From: Oscillospiraceae bacterium
GTDB taxonomy: Bacteria; Bacillota; Clostridia; UBA1212; UBA1255
Assembly: GCA_015069165.1 (NCBI GenBank)
Contig: SVJD01000003.1
Span: 1 to 64,000, forward strand
DNA: 64,000 nt
Direction: 5' to 3'
The notes under the pieces are model-generated. The model was given only the letters and a program-made list of their open reading frames with translations, was not told the origin of the DNA and made no database searches. Below are positions 44,190-46,164 of this stretch, in pieces; positions within the stretch are counted from its first letter, which is position 1, and the number at the start of each line of letters is the position of its first letter. The position numbers and the translations under genes are program-made.

Positions 44190-44419
44190 TTATTTTTTGT
44201 ATCGTGTAATTCTTGCCCAATTCTTCGGAAAGCCCATTTCTTTTAGCAACTGTTCTTCCGTAAGATGAGGGCATTTTTGAAGAACATCTTTTATTAGAGA
44301 TAGTAGTAACTAATTTCTTCCAACATTTTTCGTGCGAAGTCGGAATCAGGAATATTCAATCCCTTATCGGCTTGCAGTTTATGTAGTTGTTGCTCGTATG
44401 TCATAAATTTCTGTGCCAT
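44190..44419 (-). pseudogene. Abi_2-family (AbiD/AbiF-like) gene with internal deletion
   Basis: The N-terminal frame (44419 down) reads MAQKFMTYEQQLHKLQADKG and ISYYYL, typical of the start of Abi_2 proteins. It stops after about 41 codons. In another frame the segment ending at 44190 reads LTEEQLLKEMGFPKNWARI, matching the family's C-terminal MGFPxNW motif. Intact members are around 300 residues, so some 220 residues have been lost and the frame shifted. A GAGGT ribosome site survives. A promoter and a structured RNA with a terminator lie directly upstream. Confidence 0.7.
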
Positions 44420-44451
44420 TTAATGACCTCGCTTTCTTTGGTTATAGGGGT

Positions 44452-44519
44452 AAAAAAAAGGAGCCCACGCATGGACTCCTCCGGCTGTGGGCCCCTCGAG
44501 CATCCACAGCACAACCACT
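44452..44519 (-). ncRNA. Compact structured RNA upstream of the Abi_2 gene
   Basis: A ~68-nt transcript is bounded by a near-consensus promoter (44526-44554) and an intrinsic terminator (GGAGTCCA-TGCG-TGGGCTCC plus T8). It can form a 5' hairpin CTGTGG/CCACAG (44509-44504 with 44490-44485) and the terminator hairpin. Alternatively, GGGGCCCAC (44495-44487) can pair with GTGGGCTCC (44468-44460), excluding both. It is either an attenuating leader or a stable small RNA, possibly an RNA antitoxin. No protein is evident within it. Confidence 0.65.
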
Positions 44520-44525
44520 AAGGAT

Positions 44526-44554
44526 AATATACATTATGGACTAATGAAAGTCAA
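44526..44554 (-). promoter_or_regulatory. Promoter of the structured RNA / Abi_2 locus
   Basis: Minus-strand TTGACT (44554-44549) and TATATT (44531-44526) with a 17-bp spacer. Confidence 0.75.
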
Positions 44555-44688
44555 ATGAAATTTTTCAATAGTGGCAATGTTATTATATGCGTTGGAAGAG
44601 TGGGTTATACGAAAACAAATTCGCACATTCGTCTTAATTTCGATTCTGATTTATAGTGTAGTTATCAAAAATCAAGGAGGAAATAGTG

Positions 44689-44919
44689 ATGACTACATTA
44701 TTTGAACAACAAGGCGGACAATACGAAATGAAGGGAGATTACAAATTACCTTGTGTTACGCTTTTGCAAGATACAAACGATGATATCGGTGTATGGGGAG
44801 AGCGACACAGACGATACCTAAAAGCAAATCATAGGGTACGATATTACAATTTGCTTACTGCTGGAAAACTTAATCATTATCTTTCGGACATCAAGCAACA
44901 AGCCGAGAAGCAGAAGTGA
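44689..44919 (+). pseudogene. tnpV: Truncated TnpV transposon protein
   Basis: 76 residues beginning MTTLFEQQGGQYEMKGDY and continuing IGVWGERHRRYLKANHR, then LLTAGKLNHYLSDI, which matches TnpV of clostridial transposons. Full-length TnpV has about 120 residues; this one stops after KQQAEKQK, so the C-terminal third is missing. No transposase or recombinase is nearby. AAGGAGG precedes the start (an in-frame GTG at 44686 is also possible). It is a leftover of a mobile element rather than a working one. Confidence 0.7.
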
Positions 44920-45144: not shown

Positions 45145-45495
45145 ATGACTAATTCTATTCACAACATGAATCTTAACCCTTCCCCTTTTGAAATGATTAA
45201 AAGCGGCAAAAAAACAATAGAGCTTCGTTTATTCGATGAAAAACGCCAGCAAATTAAAGTAAATGACACAATCGTTTTTACTGATACAAAAAGCAAAGAA
45301 AAGCTTACCGCCAAAGTTACAAATTTGTATAAATTTGACAATTTTGAAAAATTGTACAAAACATTGCCACTTTTAAAATGTGGTTATACACCTGACAATG
45401 TAGGCAAAGCGCACTTTTCCGATATGCAGGAATATTATTCTGTGGAAGAACAGGAAAAATATGGTGTAATTGGAATTGAACTTTGTTTGATATAA
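45145..45495 (+). CDS. ASCH-domain protein
   Basis: 116 residues. The ASCH (PUA-like) fold is shown by NMNLNPSPFEMIKSGKKTIE followed by LRLFDEKRQQIKVNDTI and later YGVIGIEL. ASCH domains bind RNA or modified nucleosides; some are hydrolases of acetylated cytidine. The ATG at 45145 has TTGGAG in front. Cotranscribed with the nucleotidyltransferase gene 18 bp downstream. Confidence 0.85.
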   Translation: MTNSIHNMNLNPSPFEMIKSGKKTIELRLFDEKRQQIKVNDTIVFTDTKSKEKLTAKVTNLYKFDNFEKLYKTLPLLKCGYTPDNVGKAHFSDMQEYYSVEEQEKYGVIGIELCLI

Positions 45496-45513: not shown

Positions 45514-46164
45514 GTGATAGAAATTACTTCATGGATTAATAATTTTTTACAAGCATTAACTAAAAACTTCGGAAAGCGCGTATATTTCGTCGGACTTCAA
45601 GGAAGTTACGCCAGAGGCGAAGCAACAGGAAAAAGCGATATTGATGTTGTAGTAATACTTGACGAATTGTCTTTTTCGGATATTCATGCATATAATTCTA
45701 TGTTAGATACTCTGCCTCAAAGAGAGCTTATTTGCGGTTTCCTTGCTGGAAAGAAAGAGCTTTTGAATTGGGAACCATCAGATCTTTTCCAGTTTTATTA
45801 CGATACAAAACCAATCAAAGGTAGTCTTGACGAATTGCTCACGCTCATCAAAGAGGATGATATTGAAAGAGCCATAAAAATCGGTGCGTGCAATATATTC
45901 CACGCTTGTGTCCACAATATGCTCTACGAAAAGAACGACGAAATTCTGAAAGGCTTGTATAAATCTGCTTCTTTTGTTATTCAGGCAATCTGTTTTACAC
46001 AAACAGGAAAATATATCAGGCATCAAAAAGAATTGCGCGAACTTGTTTCGCAAGAAGAACAAGTTATTATAGACACTTTCTTAGCTTTAAAAAGCGGCGC
46101 AACGATTAAATTCGACGAAATGTCTGAGAGTTTGTTTAATTGGGTTAAGAATCAAATTTCATAA
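45514..46164 (+). CDS. Nucleotidyltransferase with C-terminal helical domain
   Basis: 216 residues. The MNT-type nucleotidyltransferase motif GSYARGEATGKSDIDVVV (about 31-48) supplies the metal-binding GS...DxD. The C-terminal ~100 residues are helical, similar in layout to HEPN or kanamycin-nucleotidyltransferase C-domains, so it resembles an antibiotic- or RNA-modifying enzyme in one chain. GTG start with GGAGG upstream. Substrate unknown. Confidence 0.75.
   Translation: MIEITSWINNFLQALTKNFGKRVYFVGLQGSYARGEATGKSDIDVVVILDELSFSDIHAYNSMLDTLPQRELICGFLAGKKELLNWEPSDLFQFYYDTKPIKGSLDELLTLIKEDDIERAIKIGACNIFHACVHNMLYEKNDEILKGLYKSASFVIQAICFTQTGKYIRHQKELRELVSQEEQVIIDTFLALKSGATIKFDEMSESLFNWVKNQIS

Follow-up and report, generated by a model that had tools for sequence, protein, structure and literature searches.

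The RNA-targeting CRISPR effector Cas13 is reported to descend from AbiF, and to our knowledge only a few examples of AbiF RNA antitoxins are known. In the RCd22/AbiF system of C. difficile, a promoter, the ncRNA, a Rho-independent terminator and abiF follow each other in this order; RCd22 represses abiF in cis by reducing its transcription and neutralizes AbiF in trans through RNA-protein contact (PMC12373285). According to the papers that cite it, RNA and protein monomers occur in a 1:1 ratio in the PbAbiF complex (Zilberzwige-Tal et al., cited in PMC12373285, PMC12737573). Phage PhiTE encodes pseudo-ToxI, an RNA that imitates the antitoxin ToxI (PMC3475682). The combination of AbiF with an RNA antitoxin is already known as a kind of system.

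We analyzed a stretch of 64,000 nucleotides from an Oscillospiraceae bacterium (contig SVJD01000003.1, positions 1 to 64,000), here called the window. The initial annotation had described a TTGACT-N17-TATATT promoter followed by about 68 nt, a terminator, a ribosome site and an Abi_2 reading frame, and all of these are present on the minus strand. The features of the locus are as follows.

44566..44575, minus strand: upstream arm (CCACTA) of an inverted repeat flanking the promoter; the arms covary in relatives
44526..44554, minus strand: sigma-70/SigA-type promoter TTGACT-N17-TATATT, 10/12 matches; it aligns in nearly all Abi_2-linked relatives
44515..44523, minus strand: other arm (TAGTGG) of this repeat, downstream of the promoter, where transcription is predicted to start and the RNA has its 5' end
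44452..44519, minus strand: structured RNA of putative AbiF antitoxin type, 68 nt, captured by covariance models R1/R2; homologues precede intact Abi_2
44484..44510, minus strand: hairpin 1, with a 7-bp P1 (GCUGUGG/CCACAGC), an internal loop and a short apical stem (CUC/GGG); P1 covaries
44460..44479, minus strand: hairpin 2, GGAGUCCA-UGCG-UGGGCUCC, a conserved, covarying stem with a UGCG loop, also the intrinsic terminator stem
44452..44459, minus strand: T run of the intrinsic terminator
44294..44419, minus strand: N-terminal piece of an abiF/Abi_2 remnant, 41 codons plus stop; blastp 61% identity to L036 AbiF, E 3e-12
44190..44297, minus strand: C-terminal piece of the remnant, 35 codons, out of frame; blastp 86% identity to the L025 AbiF C-terminus, E 3e-19; 84% at DNA level
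44686-44916, plus strand: TnpV gene (PF14198), adjoining the element
45148-45492, plus strand: neighbouring gene for an ASCH-domain protein
45514-46161, plus strand: neighbouring nucleotidyltransferase gene

Transcription is predicted to start at 44519, and the predicted transcript of the window RNA reads AGUGGUUG...UUUUUUUU. The terminator stem is called at 44482-44457 with the T run attached, and a ribosome-site-like GAGG at 44430-44427 precedes the ATG at 44419 (all minus strand). A noncoding RNA with its own promoter and intrinsic terminator thus lies 5' of the toxin gene, as in AbiF type III-like systems. The CCACTA...TAGTGG repeat flanks the promoter in Lachnospiraceae-type loci and occupies the same position in L023-L036, and its variable inner bases match between the arms more than in shuffled arms (p about 0.00025, 8 lineages). 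With one of its arms located 5' of the -35 box, this repeat cannot form within the RNA.

The two local hairpins that had been proposed for the RNA are identical to its minimum-free-energy fold (-30.7 kcal/mol, z -2.5). Among 16 sequences, double-sided changes were found in 4/7 pairs of P1 and 3/8 pairs of hairpin 2. A covariance model was then scanned over 391 Clostridia-class genomes and its matches were added, which gave an alignment of 37 sequences. Here, 95.3% of the cells are paired and 15 of the 18 pairs show double-sided compensatory changes (103 cells), while none of 500 shuffles scored as high and slid versions were at most 53% paired; fitting this alignment to the structure biases it towards the structure, but the effect goes far beyond both controls and was already seen with MAFFT. 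Double-sided changes affect 6/7 pairs of P1, with 98.5% of the cells paired, and 8/8 pairs of hairpin 2. Such a conserved secondary structure is what an AbiF type III-like system would show. The family consensus reads NAGUGRUYGNG-P1-AANCYYGNGRNG-P1'-ACC, followed by hairpin 2, in which the UGCG loop is frequent. Models R1 and R2 recover the window RNA in its own genome with E about 1e-24, the window copy being part of the training set. Two other pairings were rejected: a shifted register suggested by RNAalifold (GGUUGYG/CRCAGCC) is broken in L039/L040, where P1 is intact, and a pseudoknot of the 5' AGUGAUCG with the apical loop, noticed by eye on the alignment, fails in many rows.

It had also been claimed that the RNA adopts mutually exclusive folds, with the logic of an attenuator. 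The underlying 9-bp complementarity between GGGGCCCAC and GTGGGCTCC does exist (44487-44496 / 44459-44468), but the pairing is not conserved: 0/9 pairs are compensated among the 16 sequences, and pairing reaches 78.5% compared to 78.9% in shuffles. This leaves the exclusive folds, and the attenuator logic derived from them, without support. The alternative pairing does not occur in the predicted ensemble structures either, and folding predicts the two local hairpins instead. Nevertheless, a terminator does lie between promoter and gene, as a cis-acting attenuator or riboswitch-like abiF leader would require, and RCd22 also lowers abiF transcription in cis (PMC12373285). Against such a leader, both hairpins are kept in orphan copies that have no abiF downstream. 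Moreover, the stem of hairpin 2, and mostly its loop as well, is kept in phage copies that lack the T run, including those between phage tRNA genes, and hairpin 2 must therefore be more than a terminator. We consider a switching leader very improbable; the terminator probably limits read-through into the gene, as described for RCd22, with no visible switch.

When 58 related genomes were searched at the DNA level, the one significant match beyond the window lay in G028 (83% identity, E 1.2e-12), directly upstream of an intact Abi_2 gene. The encoded protein, P0001, matches PF07751 (E 1.6e-45) as well as PDB 8vz6, an Abi family protein solved together with its ncRNA. Using this protein as a query, we detected 15 further loci, 14 of which carry the element between promoter and start codon, L037 being the only one without it. 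Two further copies, diverged in sequence, precede intact Abi_2 genes in G006 and G009, which belong to the window's own family. The element is thus conserved near other Abi_2 genes, the point on which the initial annotation had let its reading stand or fall, and lies directly upstream of intact Abi_2/AbiF genes at more than 20 loci overall. All 20 Abi_2 proteins checked contain the HEPN motif RN(V/I)CAH. The RNA-only covariance model yielded 20 matches at E<=1e-5 in the 391 genomes, weak matches (L063, L064, L065, L069, L080-L086) being left out; the next gene is Abi_2 in 7 (one truncated), one match is the window itself, and 12 (about 60%) have no Abi_2 within 1.5 kb. The reading of the element as a type III-like antitoxin, which had been offered beside the attenuator, gains strong comparative support from these sequences, since a heavily covarying element lies directly upstream of intact Abi_2 and the AbiF system of PMC12373285 works in this way. 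Some intact loci carry a second copy of the RNA downstream of Abi_2 (L023 1248-1317, L034 2958-3028; weakly L030 and L031 3965-4033), and in L023 and L034 its apical-loop type differs from that of the upstream copy.

Rfam searches of the window at gathering and relaxed thresholds gave only low-scoring chance matches to sbrA and Atu_C8, driven by the terminator. The model of RF03085, the abiF RNA family, finds nothing in the window at E<=10, nor in L003 and 14 further loci at the cut-offs used, and the window RNA falls short of its gathering score of 37 bits; conversely, model R1 does not match RF03085-like loci. Other Abi_2 genes (L043, L044) have sub-threshold RF03085 matches in front of them, again in this order, showing that several RNA classes serve the Abi_2 protein family. 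Judged by these sequence models, the 68-nt RNA is a separate structural class, distinct from RF03085 and from other Rfam families, and it is absent from Rfam 15. We found no description of this RNA class or of its phage copies in the literature searched, and an earlier listing is possible. L042 and L045 have promoter-RNA-terminator leaders before Abi_2 that match neither R1 nor RF03085 and are possibly more AbiF RNA classes.

A PF07751 HEPN toxin with the RNxxxH motif lies directly 3' of the RNA in the relatives, whereas the window gene is a remnant without this motif. The HEPN RNxxAH region is deleted between the two remnant pieces, and the catalytic core is gone. Neither piece has an additional stop, so that one deletion within the gene is enough to account for the lesion. 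A Pfam search with the short N-terminal piece alone gave no match. The adjoining TnpV gene suggests a mobile background. Elsewhere in the source genome, an intact Abi_2 gene (L001) has no RNA of the 68-nt family upstream.

Of 31 columns with conservation of 90% or more among Abi_2-linked relatives, the window RNA keeps 28, and two of its three departures form one compensated base pair. The RNA had been said to be better preserved than the gene, which is accurate as a description; as the gene has one lesion only, it is no proof of selection on the window RNA. Compared to L025, identity is 88% in the flanks, 94% in the promoter, 81% in the RNA and 45% in the leader, then 57% in the N-terminal and 82% in the C-terminal coding part. 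This profile implies that the middle of the locus was exchanged relative to L025. The apical loop of the window RNA is of the L033 type. The simplest history, and the most likely one, is that the module was inactivated recently and the window RNA is the antitoxin that survived. It may be a dead relic, and recent toxin loss would leave the same traces here as active retention as an orphan antitoxin.

Taken together, we hold it to be very likely that the element is the RNA-antitoxin gene of a type III-like toxin-antitoxin module whose toxin, the HEPN ribonuclease AbiF (Abi_2), was lost here, leaving a solitary antitoxin. This builds on what we observed: a conserved, structured RNA that is linked to intact Abi_2 and differs from the Rfam abiF family, and a broken toxin gene. 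From studied AbiF systems we infer expression, read-through, binding and neutralization. By this analogy, a strong promoter in the intact relatives would drive a two-hairpin RNA of about 70 nt, and hairpin 2 would end most transcription, so that the RNA would be in large excess and abiF would be expressed by read-through, yielding little toxin mRNA. The RNA would bind and silence the AbiF ribonuclease, and in this way it probably neutralizes AbiF. In the window, one internal deletion would have removed the catalytic core of the toxin and left promoter, RNA and terminator intact. What counts against an antitoxin is that RF03085, present in the tested RCd22, is unmatched. Tandem antitoxin repeats are a classic type III hallmark, and direct repeats like those of ToxIN, CptIN and TenpIN were sought in 44440-44600 with none found. 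In addition, many family members lack Abi_2, so the RNA may have an additional role.

Among 11 genomes with such orphan copies, 6 lack any Abi_2 gene at E<=1e-5. An alignment of orphans only still shows double changes in 14/18 pairs (79 cells), with 95% pairing. Several unrelated viral contigs carry orphan copies as well: scanning such contigs by pattern and then with model R2 yielded solid matches in L074/L077, L075, L078, L090/L114, L104/L108/L109, L105 and L115. Abi_2 was found in 0/11 viral records carrying the RNA, records that may be fragments, and a search for AbiF proteins across the viral contigs gave no match. BLAST searches with the RNA against phage and plasmid collections left the RNA itself unmatched; matches to an L104 query were rejected as RNA homologues, the best among those listed covering only the tRNA-Met part. 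Phage hallmark genes, namely terminase, major head protein and integrase genes, lie close to orphan copies. L060 has its copy shortly upstream of terminase genes, and G101, a genome without Abi_2 at E<=1e-5, harbors two prophages (L060, L067; L074, L077), each with an orphan RNA.

In four phage contigs the RNA is wedged between tRNA-Met and tRNA-Arg.

L104, 2395-2617: tRNA-Met, RNA and tRNA-Arg
L109, 4015-4237: the same arrangement
L114, 5520-5742: the same arrangement
L090: the same arrangement

In L104/L109 and L090/L114, the RNA fills the gap between the two tRNAs with almost no spacing, and on contigs of sufficient length the arrays comprise about eight tRNAs. Between these two groups, the RNA is identical at 64/70 positions and the adjacent tRNAs at only 44/71 and 54/74, with 50-75% identity in neighbouring coding DNA and 60/129 at fourfold sites. 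The RNA differences include one compensated A-U to G-C change in P1. Together with the covariation among orphans, this conservation suggests that the RNA is under selection even where its toxin is absent. A second tRNA-sized gap in the arrays, between tRNA-Ala and tRNA-Asp (L104 2946-3017, matching L114 5104-5184), contains no RNA of the 68-nt family and could hold another small RNA.

An antitoxin-like RNA encoded by phages that lack the toxin gene recalls pseudo-ToxI, and this holds for the phage copies and not for the window copy. The natural reading would be that the phage copies serve as AbiF antidotes, like pseudo-ToxI; alternatively, phages may have exchanged the RNA recently, or it may have a second role. 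We tentatively propose a distinct, widespread family of AbiF antitoxin RNAs that unrelated phages and mobile elements may have captured as stand-alone anti-AbiF RNAs; in some large phages they would sit between tRNA genes, probably be freed by tRNA processing enzymes, and be under stronger purifying selection than the surrounding tRNAs. A broader version holds that solitary copies in phages and mobile elements are RNA decoys that mimic the antitoxin, and that the copy in the window is likewise retained as an orphan antitoxin, protecting its host from the AbiF of elements that come in. We regard this version as a serious possibility that stops short of being probable. The orphan share, the genomes and viral records lacking Abi_2, the orphan-only covariation, the RNA conservation between diverged phages and the PhiTE precedent (PMC3475682) all speak for it. 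However, the single deletion in the window toxin gene fits recent decay equally well, the orphan covariation may partly come from functional ancestors, and the RNA may have moved recently between phages.

The high orphan share could also mean that an independent small RNA, for example of tRNA arrays or mobile elements, was secondarily recruited beside abiF. The RNA lies in tRNA arrays, beside recombinases and, in three genomes, beside a zeta-toxin-like gene. In the latter (L047, L049, L055), the conserved orphan precedes a small ORF and a zeta-toxin-like kinase gene (PF06414), while the genes upstream differ; the RNA may here be part of a mobile toxin cassette. Yet Abi_2 is by far the commonest partner across lineages and lies immediately 3', with terminator and ribosome site in between, which makes such recruitment improbable.

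A large covarying RNA family with several apical-loop types and matched toxin genes makes RNA-protein specificity testable. Should the phage copies be functional, phages would possess a natural, full-length RNA counter-defence against a relative of Cas13, and the presence of non-tRNA RNAs within phage tRNA arrays would be explained.

With ToxIN and pseudo-ToxI, the family described here shares an RNA antitoxin of an endoribonuclease and a phage-borne RNA of the antitoxin kind. ToxI, however, is a repeated pseudoknot, whereas our RNA forms one unrepeated unit of two hairpins, and its toxin is unrelated. Unlike pseudo-ToxI, the phage copies are full-length and some lie in tRNA arrays; they are candidate mimics by their sequence. 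The RF03085 abiF RNA is likewise a small structured RNA upstream of abiF, but, at the cut-offs used, neither model matches the loci of the other. PbAbiF with its ncRNA (PDB 8vz6) is an Abi_2 homologue of the G028 protein (phmmer E 4e-10), compared at the protein level. RCd22 consists of two RF03085 motifs and a separate terminator in 98-132 nt (PMC12373285), whereas our family, about 68 nt long and unmatched by RF03085, combines a single covarying hairpin, whose internal loop differs, with a terminator hairpin that is conserved. The large excess of RNA over read-through mRNA was shown for RCd22 (PMC12373285), and the toxin gene, intact there, is broken in the window. Both systems share a SigA promoter, a short hairpin ncRNA, a Rho-independent terminator, a ribosome site and an Abi_2/AbiD/F HEPN gene.
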